Assembly (NCBI RefSeq): GCF_000305775.1
Contig: NC_018866.1
Span: forward strand, 1,612,001-1,676,000
Direction of reading: 5' to 3'
DNA from: Dehalobacter sp. DCA
GTDB taxonomy: Bacteria; Bacillota; Desulfitobacteriia; Desulfitobacteriales; Syntrophobotulaceae
Length of the DNA stretch: 64,000 nt
In this document: in pieces, positions 31,697 through 63,847 of the stretch
Numbering within the stretch: the stretch's first letter is position 1
Layout: each line of letters opens with the position of its first letter
Position numbers and translations under genes: made by a program
Notes under the pieces: model-generated
Databases searched by the model: none
What the model saw: only the letters and a program-made list of their open reading frames with translations
What the model was told of the DNA's origin: nothing

Positions 31697-31872
31697 ACAA
31701 AAATCCTGCACGGACATGCAGGATAAAGATTTTTGGCTCGGCAAACAAACCAATTCTTTTCACATCTCCTTCGCAATACAGCAAGTAACAGAATTTCTTC
31801 TACTACTCCGTGGACTTTGTCCAGACCTTGCATCCATAGCAGCATTGCAACTTTAGGATCCAAGGCTCGGAG
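31697..31872 (-). promoter_or_regulatory. Structured moeA leader, probable molybdenum/tungsten cofactor riboswitch with terminator
   Basis: Read leftward from 31872: CTCCG pairs with CGGAG (31872-31868 with 31810-31806), enclosing stem CCTTGGATCC / GGATGCAAGG (31865-31856 with 31835-31826) and hairpin GGAC-AAA-GTCC (31822-31812). Conserved-looking GCGAAGGAGATGTGAAA follows. The leader ends in a terminator, TCCTGCA-TGTCCG-TGCAGGA then TTTTTG (31723-31697), 10 bp before the moeA ribosome site. The position before moeA and the layout recall the Moco RNA motif; I have not matched it to the covariance model. Confidence 0.6.
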
Positions 31873-32375
31873 AAAAATATTCTAATGTTGTGATCCGCCG
31901 ACTCCTTTGCTTATATTCGCTTCAGCAATTGAAGGGGGTACCCTACTAGGTGAACACTCCTAGTAGGGTTATATAAAGGGAAGGAACACACCCAACGGTA
32001 ATGGCATGGTAGGATAAGATTATACTTATCTTACTCGTTCCTTATTCAATAATCAATGCTAAATATGTGCCCGTTTCAAATTTACTTCGTTTAACAGCGT
32101 TAATAACCCTGCAAGCCTTGAGAAATGCCCATCATGTTATCACCAAGCATTTTTTCGTTTTGTTAAGCAATGATATCATTTGTTAAAAATTGAGTCATAA
32201 AAGTTTTCAAAACAGGAATTTGTTGTTCATCTATTGCCTCCAGATTTAGAAATTAGCTGGAATAGACAGATTATCCAGCAATTCTCAGACTAAAAAATTA
32301 TCGGTTCCCATCCCGAGACTTCGAAATTATGATATACTATACTGCGTATTATTCAATTTTGAGGTGAAACTGTCG
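31873..32375. other. Intergenic region between moeA leader and rex
   Basis: About 500 bp with no credible gene. Besides the 31940-31969 repeat it holds an AT-rich stretch with an AATGATATCATT palindrome near 32170 between two TTGTTAA half-sites, and TATACT-like -10 boxes near 32335 that could start rex. Confidence 0.6.
31940..31969. repeat. 11-bp perfect inverted repeat upstream of the moeA leader
   Basis: ACCCTACTAGG (31940-31950) and CCTAGTAGGGT (31959-31969) around 8 bases, with no T-run, so an operator is more likely than a terminator. It lies about 70 bp upstream of the moeA leader on the minus strand. Confidence 0.7.
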
Positions 32376-55794: not shown

Positions 55795-56397
55795 TTATTT
55801 CAATAAGCTCCGGACTTTTTTATTGCCATTCTCCGAGCTGACTACGAGAAGAATATCTCCTTCTTCGAGCAGGAAGTCGGCTTCAGGAGAAAAATTCTCA
55901 TTGCCGTTTCTGACAACCCCTACGACTGTTGCTCCAGTTTCTTCTCTGACTTTAAGCTCTCTCAGGGAACAGCCGATTGCGGATGATTCCGGCTGGATTT
56001 TAAGTTCTTCAACGTCATTCCAGCGAGAGATATATCGGTCGGCATAGGTCGAAACTTTCTGAAGCAGCACATCGATTTGCCCGTCAATTTCCTTTCTCTG
56101 CTCCATCAGGCTTTTCAACTCGTCAATAAAAGCTTGAACCTCATTTTTTTGGTCAAAAGACTTTAAAAATTTTTCGGCCTCTATCCTGGAGTTCACAATG
56201 ATGCCAATACCCGGTTTTACTCTGACGACTCCTTCATTTTGCAGAATAGCAATTGCCCGACGGATCGTCTCCGGAGAAACATTGAATCTTCCTGCCAGGG
56301 TCGACCTTCCGTGGATTTTATCCCCTTCACGGAACTCGCCGAGAACGACGGCATGCGCGATCTCATTCGCGATTTCCTGATATTTGGCCTGCTCCAA
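55795..56397 (-). CDS. BusR-like GntR/RCK_C transcription regulator
   Basis: 200 residues. N-terminal GntR winged helix (DKIHGRSTLAGRFNVSPETI, VVRVKPGIGIIV), a coiled-coil linker near 75-115, and a C-terminal TrkA_C/RCK_C domain (GCSLRELKVREETGATVVGVVRN, ADFLLEEGDILLVV). This is the architecture of BusR, the c-di-AMP-binding repressor of osmolyte uptake in streptococci and lactococci; c-di-AMP binding here is inference. TTG start after AAAGGG. It faces glutamate 2,3-aminomutase across a 342-bp gap. Confidence 0.85.
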   Translation of the reverse strand: MEQAKYQEIANEIAHAVVLGEFREGDKIHGRSTLAGRFNVSPETIRRAIAILQNEGVVRVKPGIGIIVNSRIEAEKFLKSFDQKNEVQAFIDELKSLMEQRKEIDGQIDVLLQKVSTYADRYISRWNDVEELKIQPESSAIGCSLRELKVREETGATVVGVVRNGNENFSPEADFLLEEGDILLVVSSENGNKKVRSLLK

Positions 56398-58055: not shown

Positions 58056-58095
58056 AAAATCCCGTTAACCGCATTTACCAGGTTAACGGGATTTT
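58056..58095. terminator. Bidirectional terminator overlapping the yhcC-like stop
   Basis: AAAATCCCGTTAACC (58056-58070) and its exact complement (58081-58095) around GCATTTACCA. The right arm codes the last residues AKIPLTW of the minus-strand gene. Confidence 0.85.
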
Positions 58096-59007
58096 GGCGT
58101 TATAATGAATTCCTTGAAAGCTTCCTCTTCGTTCCATCTCTTGGTCGATGCCGTTTAAGACCTCCCATTTACGTCGGGTCCACATTGGGGCAATGACATC
58201 ATTGAGAGGTCCGTCGCCCATAAGTCTGTGGATGATCATATTGGGAGGAAGAATCTCCAGGATATTGGCTACGAGATCTATATATTGTTCCATTGAAAGC
58301 AGTTGAAGACTCCCCTGGCTGTAGAGATCCGCAAGCGGAGTCCCTCTTAAAATATGAAGCGAATGAATCTTTATACCCTGTATCGGGATTTGACTGATCA
58401 CCTGTGCTGTCCTGAACATTTCCTCCCGGGTTTCACAGGGAAGCCCCATGATGATATGGGTACAGACCTGGATATTCCTTTGTCTGAGCTTATTCACACC
58501 CTCCAGGAAACAGTCAAAATCATGTCCCCTGTTCAGCCAGTCCAGTGTTTTGTTATGAACAGACTGCACACCCAGTTCTACCCATAGATAGGTCTGTTTA
58601 TTCAGGTCTTCCAGAACATCAAGGATCGCTTCGTTCAGACAGTCCGGTCTGGTCGAAACGGATATGCCGACGACATCTTCCAGCGCTAACGCTTCCTGGT
58701 ACAAATTTTCCAGATAATCTTCAGGACCATACGTCGCAGAAAACGATTGAAAATAAGCAATATATTTCGCTTTTGGCCATTTTTTCAAAGTCCTCTCCCG
58801 AACCTGGTTAAACTGTTCGCGAATGGACAGCCCTCTTTGCCCTGCAAAATCTCCGGAACCTTTTTCACTGCAAAATATACAGCCTCCATCACTTATCGTC
58901 CCATCCCGGTTCGGGCAGCTGAGACCTGCATCCAAAGATACTTTGATGACTTTTTCACCAAAAAATCCGCGGAAATGTTCATTTAATGTATAATAGCGTT
59001 TGTTCAT
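58075..59007 (-). CDS. Radical SAM protein of the YhcC/TIGR01212 type
   Basis: 310 residues. The cluster site has the family's stretched form, SCPNRDGTISDGGCIFC. WVELGVQSVHNKTLDWLNRGHD and HIIMGLPCETREEM also match. Function of the family is not established; a tRNA role has been proposed for relatives. I start at ATG 59007, after CGGGGTTG; 61 further codons upstream are in frame but do not look like the family. Confidence 0.85.
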   Translation of the reverse strand: MNKRYYTLNEHFRGFFGEKVIKVSLDAGLSCPNRDGTISDGGCIFCSEKGSGDFAGQRGLSIREQFNQVRERTLKKWPKAKYIAYFQSFSATYGPEDYLENLYQEALALEDVVGISVSTRPDCLNEAILDVLEDLNKQTYLWVELGVQSVHNKTLDWLNRGHDFDCFLEGVNKLRQRNIQVCTHIIMGLPCETREEMFRTAQVISQIPIQGIKIHSLHILRGTPLADLYSQGSLQLLSMEQYIDLVANILEILPPNMIIHRLMGDGPLNDVIAPMWTRRKWEVLNGIDQEMERRGSFQGIHYNAKIPLTW

Positions 59008-59344
59008 GTTCAACCCCGGTTTCAACGTGCAATATCGTATCTCTTTTGCTAGGTCATGTGTTAAATAAGTCTCTGCATCATAGACTTGTCTTGTGTCATA
59101 GATACTTCTTTGTCTTTTCCTGTATCCTATTATAGCTTTAGTTGGTCTGAAACAAAACAACAATGGCGAAGAAACCTGTAATTTCTCCATATAAAGCCAG
59201 AAACCGGAATCAAATGTATTTCCAGCCTAGCGGTGGCATACATCTGGATTCCGGTCTCATTATCTTCATAAGATTACATCTGCATATCATACTTTACTGC
59301 ATATCATACTTTAGGTCTGCACTTATACCGCAATCTTGTTGCTT
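59008..59344. other. Intergenic region between yhcC-like gene and amtB
   Basis: 337 bp, no gene. It has a leftward TATAAT near 59131, an imperfect inverted repeat ACCGGAATC / GGATTCCGGT (about 59202-59253), and a 17-bp tandem repeat TGCATATCATACTTTAC at 59281-59297 and 59298-59314 (last base differs). Confidence 0.6.
59281..59314. repeat. 17-bp tandem repeat
   Basis: Two adjacent copies of TGCATATCATACTTTA plus one variable base, directly after the amtB stop on the minus strand. Confidence 0.85.
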
Positions 59345-60607
59345 CTATAAATTATAGATCGAATTTGCTGTTAATCCTTCAAAATCGGGATAAGCACTTT
59401 CTCCGTGTTGGGTTGTATCAAGACCGCTGACCTGTTCAGCGTCTGTAGCTGTGAGCGGAGTGATTGCTCCGATGACTTTCAGTAGGATAAACGTTACCAG
59501 ACCTGCGTATATATACGTTGCCAGTACTGCGATGAGCTGTATGCCGACTTGATGGAACTCACCAGAGTAGAATAGGCCGTCTTTACCGAGAGGGTTAACT
59601 GCGGTTGTGCAGAAGATGCCTGTCGCCAGAGCTCCCCAGGTTCCGCCGATTCCGTGGATGCCAAAGGCATCCAGCGCGTCGTCATAACCAAGCTTATCTT
59701 TAAGGATTGCAACTGCAAAGTAGCATAATCCGCCGGCTACAAGGCCAATTACCATTGCGGAGGCATTTGTTACATAGGCACAAGCAGGTGTTATGGCTAC
59801 CAGTCCGGCAACAGCTCCGGAAATTGCACCCAGGACAGTGGGCTTTCCACGGTGCAGTTTTTCTGCAACGACCCAGCCCAAAAGCCCTAAGGCAGCTGCA
59901 ATAAATGTGGTCACAAAAGCGATTACTGCAATTCCGTCAGCCGCCAGTTCACTGCCTGCATTAAAGCCAAACCAGCCAAACCATAGCAGGGTTCCGCCCA
60001 GAATCACGTAAGGAATATTATGCGGAATAGTCGGATCTGTAGACTTATTGATGCGTTTTCCGATCACAAGTGCTGCGATCAGACCGGAGAAACCTGAACT
60101 GATATGAACGACAGTACCGCCGGCAAAATCAAGTGCACCTAAATTTCCAAGCCAGCCGCCCCCCCATACCCAGTGCGCGATCGGAACGTACACCAGTAAA
60201 CTCCAGAAACTCATCAACAAAACAAATGCGGGAAAACGCAAGCGTTCGGCTGTTGCCCCAGTCATCAAGGCCGGTGTCAGGATCGCGAACATCATCTGAA
60301 AAACCATAAAAAGCAGATGCGGAATCGTAGCGCCTTCAGTTCGCGGCTCCAGCCCTACGCCATTCAACATCAGATGGTCGAGCCCGCCAATGACTGAACC
60401 GATATCCGGTCCAAAAGCAAGCGAATAACCTAAAACTACCCAGATAAGTGTTACAACACCCATTGCTATAATACTTTGCATCATCATGGATAAAACATGA
60501 CGTTTTTTAACCAGTCCTCCGTAAAAAAAGGCCAGACCGGGTGTCATTAACATAACAAGTGCGGTGGAAATAATCATAAACCCAATATCCCCAGTTGTGT
60601 AATTCAT
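59345..60607 (-). CDS. amtB: Ammonium transporter AmtB
   Basis: 420 residues with about eleven membrane helices. The pore twin histidines appear in VPIAHWVWGGGWLG (about 146) and DAFGIHGIGGTWGALATG (about 318); LMTPGLAFFYGGLVKK near the start is the family signature. No glnK/PII gene is beside it, which is unusual. Start after AAGGAGGAG. Leader holds a terminator and a clear promoter. It supplies ammonium to GdhA and the glutamine/GltBD route. Confidence 0.96.
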   Translation of the reverse strand: MNYTTGDIGFMIISTALVMLMTPGLAFFYGGLVKKRHVLSMMMQSIIAMGVVTLIWVVLGYSLAFGPDIGSVIGGLDHLMLNGVGLEPRTEGATIPHLLFMVFQMMFAILTPALMTGATAERLRFPAFVLLMSFWSLLVYVPIAHWVWGGGWLGNLGALDFAGGTVVHISSGFSGLIAALVIGKRINKSTDPTIPHNIPYVILGGTLLWFGWFGFNAGSELAADGIAVIAFVTTFIAAALGLLGWVVAEKLHRGKPTVLGAISGAVAGLVAITPACAYVTNASAMVIGLVAGGLCYFAVAILKDKLGYDDALDAFGIHGIGGTWGALATGIFCTTAVNPLGKDGLFYSGEFHQVGIQLIAVLATYIYAGLVTFILLKVIGAITPLTATDAEQVSGLDTTQHGESAYPDFEGLTANSIYNL

Positions 60608-60693
60608 TTTCTTCTCCTCCTTAGTTTCTTGATGTTTCTTAGGTTTTATAGATAGTCTGATACAAGTCTTTAGCCACGCGCCGATTGACTAAT

Positions 60694-60731
60694 AAAAAAA
60701 GCCTCAAAAAAGTATTGCACTTTTTTGAGGC
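60694..60731 (-). terminator. Terminator hairpin in the amtB leader (attenuator candidate)
   Basis: Leftward stem GCCTCAAAAAAGT / ACTTTTTTGAGGC (60731-60719 with 60713-60701), loop GCAAT, then seven T. It lies between the amtB promoter and gene, about 37 bases after the start of transcription. Confidence 0.88.
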
Positions 60732-60774
60732 CCCGTTGCCTGATTGACTTGCGTATAACAAACGATCTATCTGT

Positions 60775-60803
60775 ACTATATTACCCGGTAAACAATCTGT
60801 AAA
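60775..60803 (-). promoter_or_regulatory. Promoter of amtB
   Basis: TTTACA (60803-60798), 17-bp spacer, TATAGT (60780-60775). The -35 box ends 17 bp from the edge of the neighbouring insertion sequence. Confidence 0.8.
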
Positions 60804-60819
60804 GAGGTTTTTCGTTTAA

Positions 60820-62851
60820 AGGGGCTGTATCACAACTTAGCCCCAAGCGAAAGACGTCAATTTAAAAAAATGGCGTCTTTTCTTTTTGGGGTAGTGCAGA
60901 CTCGCACAGTCCACCGCTCCCCCGTTCTCGCAGCTAAAAACAGAAACCCTCGCTAACATGCCAAAACCCCGCTGTTTACTGCAAGTTAACCGTTGGCATG
61001 TTTTAACGCTGCGGATTTCTGTTTTTTAACGCTGCTGCCACTAACGTCCGCTTGTGAATCTGTGCAAGTCTGCAATATTTGAAGAAATCAGCAGATATAG
61101 GGAGATATTTTGACGTGAATGTGGTATAATGTCTATGGATATAAATATTGCCATATTTGGAGGTATTTGAATGTCTAAGAAAGGGCAGAAAGTACATACC
61201 AAGAAAGTATTTAAACCTTATGTGCAGGAACAACAAACACTGCCGTTAAGCATCGACAGCCTGATTCCTCAAAACCATGTCGTCCGAGTTGTGAATCGTG
61301 CTATCGATCGCATGAATCTCGAACCCTTGTTTGCCAAATATCCTGGAGGCGGCCGTTCCAGCTTTCACCCTGTCATGATGACCAAGTTATTGGTTTATGC
61401 GTATACGGACAGGGTTTTTTCATGCCGCCGGATAGCAAAAGCGGCCCGTGAAAATATTATGTATATGTGGCTGTGCGGCGGCAATCAGCCGGATTTCATG
61501 TCAGTTAACCGCTTCCGGAGTGAACGGATGAAAGAGGTTATTCTAGAAGTATTTGCTGAAGTTATTGAACTCTTAGTCAAAGAAAAATACATCAAGCTGG
61601 AAAATTATTTTTTAGACGGGACAAAAATTGAGGCCAATGCCAATAAATACAGTTGGGTATGGGGCAAATCCACGAAGCGCTATAAAGAAGCGTTAAGGGA
61701 GAAATGCCGGGAATTATTTAAAGAAATCGATCAGATCAATGAAGAAGAAAATGCGGAATACGGCGACAGTGATTTAGAAGAGCTAGGCAATGGCAAGCCC
61801 ATTGACTCAGAGGCTATTGAAGAAGCCGTAAGGAAAATTGACGAGAGACTGGCTAAGAAATCGGAAGAAGAGACAGTAGATGCTGAAACCAAAAAGTTAA
61901 AGAAAACAAGAAACACCCTTACGAAAGATTATCTGCCAAGAATGCAGAAATATGAACAGCAAGAACTGATCCTGGAAGAAAGAAACAGTTACTCCAAGAC
62001 AGATCACGATGCCACCTTTATGCGAATGAAAGAAGACCATATGAAAAACGGTCAGTTAAAGCCAGGTTACAATGTCCAGATCGGGACGGAGAACCAGTTT
62101 GTGGTCGGTTACAGTGTTCATCAGAGACCGGGCGATACCAGCTGTATGAAGGATCACCTGGAAGAATTAAAAACGCTCCTGCATGGGGAATTACCAAAGA
62201 ATATTATTGCCGATGCCGGCTATGGCAGCGAAGAAAATTACGACTATCTGCAGGAGAAAAAGCTTGTGTCTTATGTCAAATATAATACCTTCCACAAAGA
62301 AGCCAGTAAGAAATGGAAAGAAGACATAACGAAACCACAGAACTTCACCTATGACCATGAAAATGATGAATATATCTGCGGTTATGGGAGAACACTCATT
62401 TTCTTATACGAGCGGCACCAAAAAAGTGACAATGGCTATAGGAGTTTGATCCGAATCTATGAATGCCTGAATTGTTCCGGGTGTCCTCATCGGAACCAGT
62501 GCGTGAAGTCATCCGATCCATACGCTAACAGAAGAATATATGTCAATCGCAAACTGAATGCCTATAAAGAACAGGCCCGCAGGAATTTGTGTTCAGAAGA
62601 AGGTTTGCGCATGAGGAGCTTGAGGCCGGTCGAGGTTGAAAGCGTCTTTGGAGACATTAAAGGGAATCACGGTATGCGAAGATTCCTGTTAAAAGGGCTA
62701 GAAAAGGTTAAAATTGAGTGGGGATTACATTGCATCGCTCATAATATGAGAAAAATGGCGTTGATCACTGGATAGGAAACTAAATTTTAAAAAAATTCAC
62801 CATAAAAAGTGAGGGGGCGCAACCGAAACCTAAAGTTTCGTTACGCCCCCT
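60820..62851 (+). mobile_element. Complete IS1182-family insertion sequence, about 2032 bp
   Basis: Imperfect ends: AGGGGCTGTATCACAACTTAG at the left and, read inward, AGGGGGCGTAACGAAACTTTAG at the right. TTAA flanks both sides (60816-60819 and 62852-62855), a 4-bp palindromic target typical of this family. A hairpin near 60841-60891 (CCCCAA..GAAAGACG / CGTCTTTT..TTGGGG) lies ahead of the transposase. Confidence 0.88.
61171..62775 (+). CDS. IS1182-family transposase
   Basis: 534 residues. DDE core: ENYFLDGTKIEANANK (first Asp, about 152), IIADAGYGSEENY (second Asp, about 350), and the C-terminal Glu in RPVEVESVFGDIKGNHG (about 490). The N-terminal half has the helical DNA-binding DUF772-like region (SRIAKAARENIMYMWLCGG region) and a charged coiled coil in the middle. 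Extended -10 TGGTATAAT at 61122-61130; start after GGAGG. Full length. Confidence 0.94.
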   Translation: MSKKGQKVHTKKVFKPYVQEQQTLPLSIDSLIPQNHVVRVVNRAIDRMNLEPLFAKYPGGGRSSFHPVMMTKLLVYAYTDRVFSCRRIAKAARENIMYMWLCGGNQPDFMSVNRFRSERMKEVILEVFAEVIELLVKEKYIKLENYFLDGTKIEANANKYSWVWGKSTKRYKEALREKCRELFKEIDQINEEENAEYGDSDLEELGNGKPIDSEAIEEAVRKIDERLAKKSEEETVDAETKKLKKTRNTLTKDYLPRMQKYEQQELILEERNSYSKTDHDATFMRMKEDHMKNGQLKPGYNVQIGTENQFVVGYSVHQRPGDTSCMKDHLEELKTLLHGELPKNIIADAGYGSEENYDYLQEKKLVSYVKYNTFHKEASKKWKEDITKPQNFTYDHENDEYICGYGRTLIFLYERHQKSDNGYRSLIRIYECLNCSGCPHRNQCVKSSDPYANRRIYVNRKLNAYKEQARRNLCSEEGLRMRSLRPVEVESVFGDIKGNHGMRRFLLKGLEKVKIEWGLHCIAHNMRKMALITG

Positions 62852-62893
62852 TTAATATTACGCATATCCGGTTAATCCTAAACCTGTCATTGG

Positions 62894-63847
62894 TCATAAG
62901 AGTCCAACTCCCCAAATTTCTTGACCGCATCGGCATTTCCCTTCTGTGGTTTTAACGGTGACCTGCATGTCTCTGGTAATAACCTCCTGACCGCATTGCG
63001 GACAATAGGTTGTGTTGCCTCCTGCCATATTTCCAAGGCACACATACGGTAGGCAATCTTTGGCCAACCCCCATAGTTTCTTCAGCTTCTTTTCATCTGT
63101 TGCCGGTATTTTGCTTTTATGCATTGGATGATATTTGCTCAAATGCCACGCCAGCGGAGTATTTAAGCCGGACAGCCATTTGGCCAGCGCCTCAATTTCC
63201 TGCGGACTGTCATTCAAGTTCGGGATAACAAGCGTTGTGATCTCGGTATGAACGTTTGACACCAGCGTTTCAACTGTTTTTAACACCCACTCCAGTTTCC
63301 CTCCGGTGTATTTCTCGTAGAATTCCGGGGTAAACCCTTTGATATCAATATTGACCGCATCGATGTAAGGGATTAGATATTCGAGGTATTTCTGTTCGAT
63401 GATCCCATTGGATACCAGAACGACCTTTCCTCCCCGTTCTTTGACCAGCGGAGCTGTCTCCATGATCATTTCGTACCAGACCAGAGGCTCCGTATACGTA
63501 AAGCAAATCCCGACGGACTGGTCTTCCCCGGCCATTTCCGTCAGCTGCTTCGGGGAAATTCGGCGGCCCTGCTCATATTTCTGGGAGATCTCATGGTTCT
63601 GGCAGAAGAAGCAGTGCAGGTTGCAGCCATAGCCGCCGACAGAGAATATCCAGCTTCCCGGATAGAAATGATAAAGCGGTTTCTTCTCCACAGGATCAAG
63701 ATGAAACGCAGCGACTTCAGCAAAAGTCAGCGGTATGATTTCACCGTTCCGACACCCTCTGACCTTACAGAATCCGGACTGGCCTTCTTTGAGTTTACAG
63801 TGATGCGGACATAGCGGACATTCAGAAAATCCTGTCATATGCTTCAT
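62894..63847 (-). CDS. AmmeMemoRadiSam system radical SAM enzyme
   Basis: 317 residues. N-terminal CPLCPHHCKLKEGQSGFC, the SAM cluster CNLHCFFCQNHEIS (about 78), and a C-terminal Cys-rich part (CPQCGQEV, CRCGQE). It belongs to the conserved but uncharacterised set AMMECR1 / MEMO1 / radical SAM. The pyruvate formate-lyase activating enzyme-like fold suggests glycyl radical or other radical chemistry, not shown. An AMMECR1 gene follows upstream on the same strand, confirming the system. Confidence 0.92.
   Translation of the reverse strand: MKHMTGFSECPLCPHHCKLKEGQSGFCKVRGCRNGEIIPLTFAEVAAFHLDPVEKKPLYHFYPGSWIFSVGGYGCNLHCFFCQNHEISQKYEQGRRISPKQLTEMAGEDQSVGICFTYTEPLVWYEMIMETAPLVKERGGKVVLVSNGIIEQKYLEYLIPYIDAVNIDIKGFTPEFYEKYTGGKLEWVLKTVETLVSNVHTEITTLVIPNLNDSPQEIEALAKWLSGLNTPLAWHLSKYHPMHKSKIPATDEKKLKKLWGLAKDCLPYVCLGNMAGGNTTYCPQCGQEVITRDMQVTVKTTEGKCRCGQEIWGVGLL

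Follow-up and report, generated by a model that had tools for sequence, protein, structure and literature searches.

A putative single-hexaloop ANTAR attenuator in the amtB leader of Dehalobacter sp. DCA and the strain-specific loss of its upstream palindrome

Antiterminators of the ANTAR type read RNA hairpins with a six-base loop that carries A at position 1 and G at position 4 (A1/G4), the second of two such hairpins overlapping a terminator (PMC3369931). Dual-hairpin RNAs of this kind are known from the eut, nas and ami systems (Ramesh et al. 2012), and their predicted targets include ammonium transporters (PMC3369931). In the EutV systems both hairpins are required (PMC3369931, PMC8934654). 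In the EutV-RNA structure of 2022 the contacts are confined to one hexaloop, and the binding unit was redefined as this single hexaloop, a proposed minimal motif, with the two-hairpin model of antitermination retained; its authors expected single sites where the transcribing polymerase imposes no time limit, left open the question of single hexaloops and called for bioinformatics on them (PMC8934654). In this work, we analyzed a 64,000-base stretch of the Dehalobacter sp. DCA genome (the window, positions 1612001-1676000 of a single contig of 3,069,953 bases), and specifically the leader of its ammonium transporter gene amtB. As judged from sequence, this leader is probably a single-hexaloop variant of ANTAR attenuation, to which is added a strain-specific loss of an upstream site at an insertion sequence (IS) of the IS1182 family.

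The amtB leader and its hexaloop hairpin

The amtB gene (59345-60607, minus strand) encodes a transporter of 420 amino acids (Pfam PF00909, E 2.8e-130; NCBIfam TIGR00836, above cut-off), with its start codon at 60607 and a ribosome-binding site AAGGAGGAGAAG at 60611-60622. Its promoter (60775-60803, minus), which is also seen in relatives, combines a -35 TTTACA (60798-60803), a 17-nt spacer and a -10 TATAGT (60775-60780), matches the consensus at 10 of 12 positions and is predicted to start transcription at about 60772. An intrinsic terminator with its U run (60694-60732, minus), likewise kept in relatives, lies about 38 nt past this predicted start; its stem, placed at 60698-60734 in the terminator scan, has 17 pairs with the G-C pairs mostly at the base. 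The initial annotation had proposed this promoter and a leader terminator about 37 nt after the start, and both are confirmed. Site counts alone do not exceed those of shuffled sequence in the leader region, either for promoter-like sites (11 against a mean of 10.5) or for terminator-like ones (7 against 5.6), and promoter and terminator are credible because they are conserved before amtB in relatives. The leader as a whole folds better than shuffles (z -3.6), the terminator supplying about half of the energy.

Directly upstream, and overlapping the terminator, stands the hairpin AGGC[AACGGG]GCCU (60728-60741, minus), assigned to the ANTAR type by the phylum comparison described below. Its six-base loop carries A1 and G4, its stem reaches the 3 bp or more that the definition of an ANTAR target asks for, the closing pair is C-G, and its 3' arm doubles as the 5' base of the terminator, the two folds being predicted to be mutually exclusive. 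Left free, the terminator stretch folds at -20.4 kcal/mol. Forcing the hairpin changes this to -12.4 kcal/mol, as the A-U-rich upper stem alone remains of the terminator; in the other 15 elements of the family the forced hairpin likewise costs 2.7 to 13.9 kcal/mol. In such a model the difference would be paid by the bound protein, or the protein would act on the emerging RNA. The short leader had also been described as offering little space for a classic riboswitch, in agreement with the lack of any Rfam match (riboswitch or leader family) at gathering score in it. A possible long-range pairing, seen when the window leader (60607-60772, minus) alone was folded, joins the 5' part with bases past the terminator.

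The element was then compared across a family of 25 genomes, with leader DNA matched in 9 and AmtB encoded in 17. A close set was defined as 19 AmtB genes of at least 69% identity from 11 genomes, including both genes of the source genome, and GGC[AANGNN]GCC precedes amtB in all 19. A terminator script, applied to all of these loci except L164 (whose element equals that of L022) and L182, detected one beginning within the hairpin at 15 of them and none for L183 and L184, though stem and U run are visible there. The initial annotation had named the lack of a conserved leader terminator in relatives as a refutation of its reading, and this test came out in its favor. The distance from the end of the best -10 to the hairpin is 29-39 nt in 8 of the 19 leaders (33 nt for the window leader) and 5-7 nt in another 8, the type of the source genome's amtB paralogue, so that their predicted start falls at the hairpin itself; for L170, L172 and L186 the promoter scan gave none or more distant ones. 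In one leader (L172, genome G021) the hairpin and terminator unit is present twice in tandem.

Within the source genome, a model search whose alignment left out L164 and L165 (element equal to that of L022), L180, L182, L184 and L023 scored 150 of 2181 first-look candidates. Four matches had an E of 0.5 or lower; the two strong ones are the amtB leaders (4.6e-11 and 4.4e-5, the window leader itself being part of the model), and the others are an opposite-strand echo of the first of them (0.03) and a weak match elsewhere (0.32). The pattern GGCAANGNNGCC occurs 39 times in the whole genome and its reversed control 31 times; of the 30 matches inspected by eye, those in the two amtB leaders are the only ones followed by a terminator. 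In a relative, G020, two further hairpin-terminator elements of the amtB-leader kind (L322 and L323) stand before genes that seem by eye to encode an EAL-domain protein and the substrate-binding protein of an ABC transporter, and the regulon of that genome may extend beyond amtB. By eye, hexaloop hairpins are also present at more distant amtB genes of relatives (L188 and L189), and L189 has the dual form.

A sample of 159 genomes of the phylum, 67 of them with an AmtB match (source genome included), served for a wider comparison. The 450 bases upstream were taken for 100 of the 101 AmtB rows outside the source genome (the interrupted row G071 C1 485659 was left out) and scanned for hairpins with any loop of six bases that overlap a terminator; at least 80 distant amtB loci were also listed but unused in the analysis. 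An ANTAR protein is present in 56 of the 66 other AmtB-bearing genomes. An A1/G4 hexaloop on a terminator was found in 40/88 leaders of ANTAR-bearing genomes versus 0/12 of ANTAR-less ones (Fisher p 0.0013 when leaders are counted and 0.0004 when genomes are, 33/56 versus 0/10), p-values that overstate independence because the genomes are related. The 58 hexaloop matches in ANTAR-bearing genomes comprise 45 of the form A..G and 8 of the form G..G, the lone match in an ANTAR-less genome being G..G, and the closing pair is C-G in 38 of the 40 A1/G4 leaders. In 20 rounds of dinucleotide shuffling, A1/G4 matches averaged 0.35 of 88 and never exceeded 1. As to loop size, hairpins were found in 47 of the 88 leaders at size 6; in 27, 26 and 20 at sizes 4, 8 and 10 (sizes 4 and 8 may recount the same hairpins with one pair more or less); and in 4, 4, 6 and 16 at sizes 3, 5, 7 and 9. 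The dominance of A and G is seen at size 6 only, and sizes other than 6 occur in 0 to 2 of the 12 ANTAR-less leaders. Conservation, hexaloop signature and co-occurrence with ANTAR proteins are thus established at the level of sequence comparison.

The ANTAR protein and the alternative explanations

The source genome encodes one ANTAR protein (L021, 1111-1677; 188 amino acids; PF03861 above cut-off), whose relatives among solved structures include EutV (6wsh/6ww6, E 3e-9) and the putative antiterminator 1s8n (E 8e-11). On our reading of the alignment, six of the nine RNA contacts of EutV are kept (R142, K143, Y164, R168, M172 and R175) and three are altered (K147, N173 and R177) (PMC8934654), so that the domain retains aromatic and basic RNA-contact residues. 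An ANTAR protein had initially been suggested as a candidate antiterminator, a suggestion supported by the A1/G4 hexaloop on the terminator and by the presence of this protein. The phosphoacceptor Asp of EutV aligns with Gly and its receiver Lys with Ala. Among 11 orthologues, one per genome carrying close amtB leaders, the acceptor position is Gly in 10 and Ser in 1, and no Lys precedes the conserved Pro. The ungapped alignment and the missing Lys point to loss of the acceptor, and the receiver seems to be without one; a kinase signal is therefore unlikely, and the protein would probably be switched by a partner or ligand rather than by a histidine kinase.

We propose the following mechanism. 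By default, the nascent leader RNA would fold the terminator and transcription would stop. When the ANTAR protein binds the hexaloop, the hairpin would hold the G-C-rich 5' base of the terminator, and the remaining A-U-rich stem would be weak enough for transcription to continue into amtB. Binding, antitermination and the nature of the signal are what we infer from the comparisons above.

The closest rival is a canonical dual-hairpin ANTAR target with a first hairpin that is degenerate, or that a longer transcript would carry further upstream, as known systems need both hairpins (PMC3369931, PMC8934654). We scanned for first hairpins with A1 or G1 together with G4, a stem of at least 4 bp including a G-C pair and a linker of 3-16 nt, and found them in 9/18 leaders of a distant amtB type versus 3/27 of the closer type (p 0.006), one of these three belonging to an ANTAR-less genome. 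The same scan thus does find first hairpins, yet with the stem relaxed to at least 3 bp and at least one G-C pair they occur in 0/19 family leaders (p 0.0004 against the 9/18 of the distant type). The dual-hairpin definition includes a first hexaloop hairpin upstream, set off by a short linker, and none (A1 or G1, stem of at least 3 bp) is found in the 5' part of the window leader (60742-60772, minus). Without the G-C condition, an A-U-only A1/G4 hairpin with a 10-nt linker appears in L171, in favor of a degenerate first hairpin, but it is not common to the other leaders. Furthermore, in 8 of 19 leaders just 5-7 nt separate the end of the predicted -10 from the hairpin, which speaks against an upstream partner, and we consider a dual-hairpin target unlikely here.

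A plain terminator, which would insulate amtB from upstream transcription or yield a short terminated RNA, with read-through that is partial and constant, would agree with the dominance of the terminator in the energy of the element and with the short RNAs that would arise. Nevertheless, the terminator sits downstream of a promoter found in relatives, it stands before each of the two amtB paralogues, which have different genes upstream, L172 carries two tandem copies, and neither the hexaloop signature nor the co-occurrence with ANTAR proteins would be expected, so that this explanation appears improbable to us. Still less credible, and indeed very improbable, is a small riboswitch or another RNA-binding protein using the conserved AGGCAANGRRGCC element. 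Sequence conservation within the family does exceed what A1 and G4 alone demand, but the leader has no Rfam match at gathering score and, across the phylum, A1 and G4 stay constant while the stems and the other loop bases vary.

Several observations weigh against attenuation through a single hexaloop. The published EutV systems needed both hairpins (PMC3369931, PMC8934654). The hairpin stem has just 3-4 bp and is far weaker than the terminator. In the phylum sample, 48 of the 88 leaders in ANTAR-bearing genomes have no A1/G4 match, some of them having no terminator in range, and the ANTAR-less sample is small (12 leaders from 10 related genomes). Besides, the orthologues carry an acidic residue two positions past the acceptor position (Asp in 10 of 11, Glu in 1), which casts some doubt on the loss of the acceptor, and the neighbors of the ANTAR gene, in the 3.1 kb viewed, appear by eye unrelated to nitrogen. 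Finally, the start sites are predictions.

Replacement of the upstream palindrome by an IS1182-family element

Upstream of the amtB promoter lies an IS1182-family element (60821-62850, plus), one of five full copies in the genome, with a transposase gene at 61171-62775 that matches NCBIfam model NF033551 (449 bits, cut-off 270). From right to left the gene order is amrS, which encodes an AmmeMemoRadiSam enzyme (62894-63847, minus), the element with its transposase on the plus strand, amtB and, at 58075-59190 (minus), a radical SAM gene of tRNA modification. The start of the element at 60821 leaves 17 bp to the -35, a distance given correctly by the initial annotation, which had taken the leader to be trimmed by an insertion element. 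A simple insertion is ruled out: alignment to the IS-free leader of a relative (L026, genome G003) shows that 26 bp are missing in the window. They form the core of the perfect palindrome TTAAATAATGTATACA-ttcc-TGTATACATTATTTAA, from whose arms five bases each persist at the ends of the element (TTAAA at 60816-60820 and TTTAA at 62851-62855), and the core with both TGTATACA sites is gone. The annotated loss of upstream sequence thus concerns a specific conserved palindrome, removed by replacement as judged against IS-free relatives. Altogether, what the initial annotation observed is confirmed and its interpretation partly supported.

All resolvable copies of the element (4 of 5) replaced a palindrome, as judged by empty sites in relatives. 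Copies L003, L004 and L005 did so as at amtB, the palindrome of L005 following a tRNA-like sequence; for L002 no clean empty site was found among the 4 genomes searched. The flanks alone show an inverted run of 5 in 2 of the 5 copies, and replacement was settled by the empty sites instead. Outward promoter-like sites within the element reach 9/12, not above shuffles.

The lost site belongs to a conserved arrangement. A GTATAC core is found upstream in 18 of the 19 family leaders, the window leader being the exception; its center lies 24 bp before the -35 in 13 of them, 17-18 bp in 3 more, and elsewhere in L185 and L186. Four relatives of the same genus keep the paired-TGTATACA palindrome in full or in part, with the pairs at 24 and 36 bp before the -35 in G003, G004 and G005 and at 24 and 45 bp in G006. 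The amtB paralogue of the source genome retains its pair, at 24 and 43 bp, and the regulator may therefore still act there. On both strands, the paired TGTATACA (spacer of up to 30) has one site in the genome, before this paralogue, although the reversed control gives an equal count (1 and 1). In the window TGTATACA occurs 0 times (0.39 expected), and in the 80 bases now before the -35, which take in the end of the element, the best match is 5/8. Across the phylum it occurs in 9 of 100 leaders, versus 0.96 in mononucleotide shuffles, a mild control.

In consequence of the replacement, the strain should have lost an upstream layer of control while keeping promoter and attenuator. The positions of the palindrome suit an activator, but it may instead have served a repressor; the direction of the lost control we infer from position. 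The protein that reads TGTATACA might, at a guess, be a GntR-type regulator. A protein encoded at 55795-56397 (minus), about 3 kb beyond amtB, weakly matches GntR-type regulators in its N-terminal part and TrkA-like proteins in its C-terminal part, and might conceivably read the site. Elsewhere in the window, a Moco (molybdenum/tungsten) riboswitch (31750-31884, minus; 71.5 bits) is the sole Rfam match at gathering score.

Comparison with described systems

Taken together, these results can be joined in a broader proposal, to which we give about even chances: single-hexaloop ANTAR attenuators of amtB would be spread across the phylum, one hairpin at or near the 5' end would be enough, the reader in the family of the window would have a phosphorylation-dead receiver, and IS1182-type elements, because they replace palindromes, would selectively erase dimer-type operators and terminators. 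If one hairpin suffices for antitermination, the recruitment hairpin of the EutV model would be dispensable. The amtB leaders look like natural single-hexaloop attenuators, and as such offer a direct test of the two-hairpin model, whereas the clean removal of a conserved promoter-proximal palindrome in one strain amounts to a natural experiment on the role of that site. In the limited collection of literature searched, no description of ANTAR leaders with a single hexaloop on a terminator was found, and the amtB leaders fit the gap left by the EutV structure work.

Like the dual-hairpin ANTAR RNAs, the amtB leaders have an A1/G4 hexaloop, a hairpin on an intrinsic terminator and a nitrogen-gene context; in contrast to them, they show one hairpin, which in 8 of 19 lies at the predicted 5' end (PMC3369931). 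They use one hexaloop, as does the minimal motif of the EutV-RNA structure, but their single site is placed in a nascent leader, on the terminator, unlike what was expected for such sites (PMC8934654). Replacement of stem-loops by transposition, a trait of some members of the IS1182 family, has been described for IS1272 (PMC5678879, PMC4923244). The element before amtB is of the same family by NCBIfam and likewise replaces inverted repeats, while its host belongs to another group and one of its replaced repeats is a conserved palindrome near a promoter (PMC5678879, PMC4923244). The mechanism of replacement is already known, and what this locus adds to it is a replaced repeat at a promoter.

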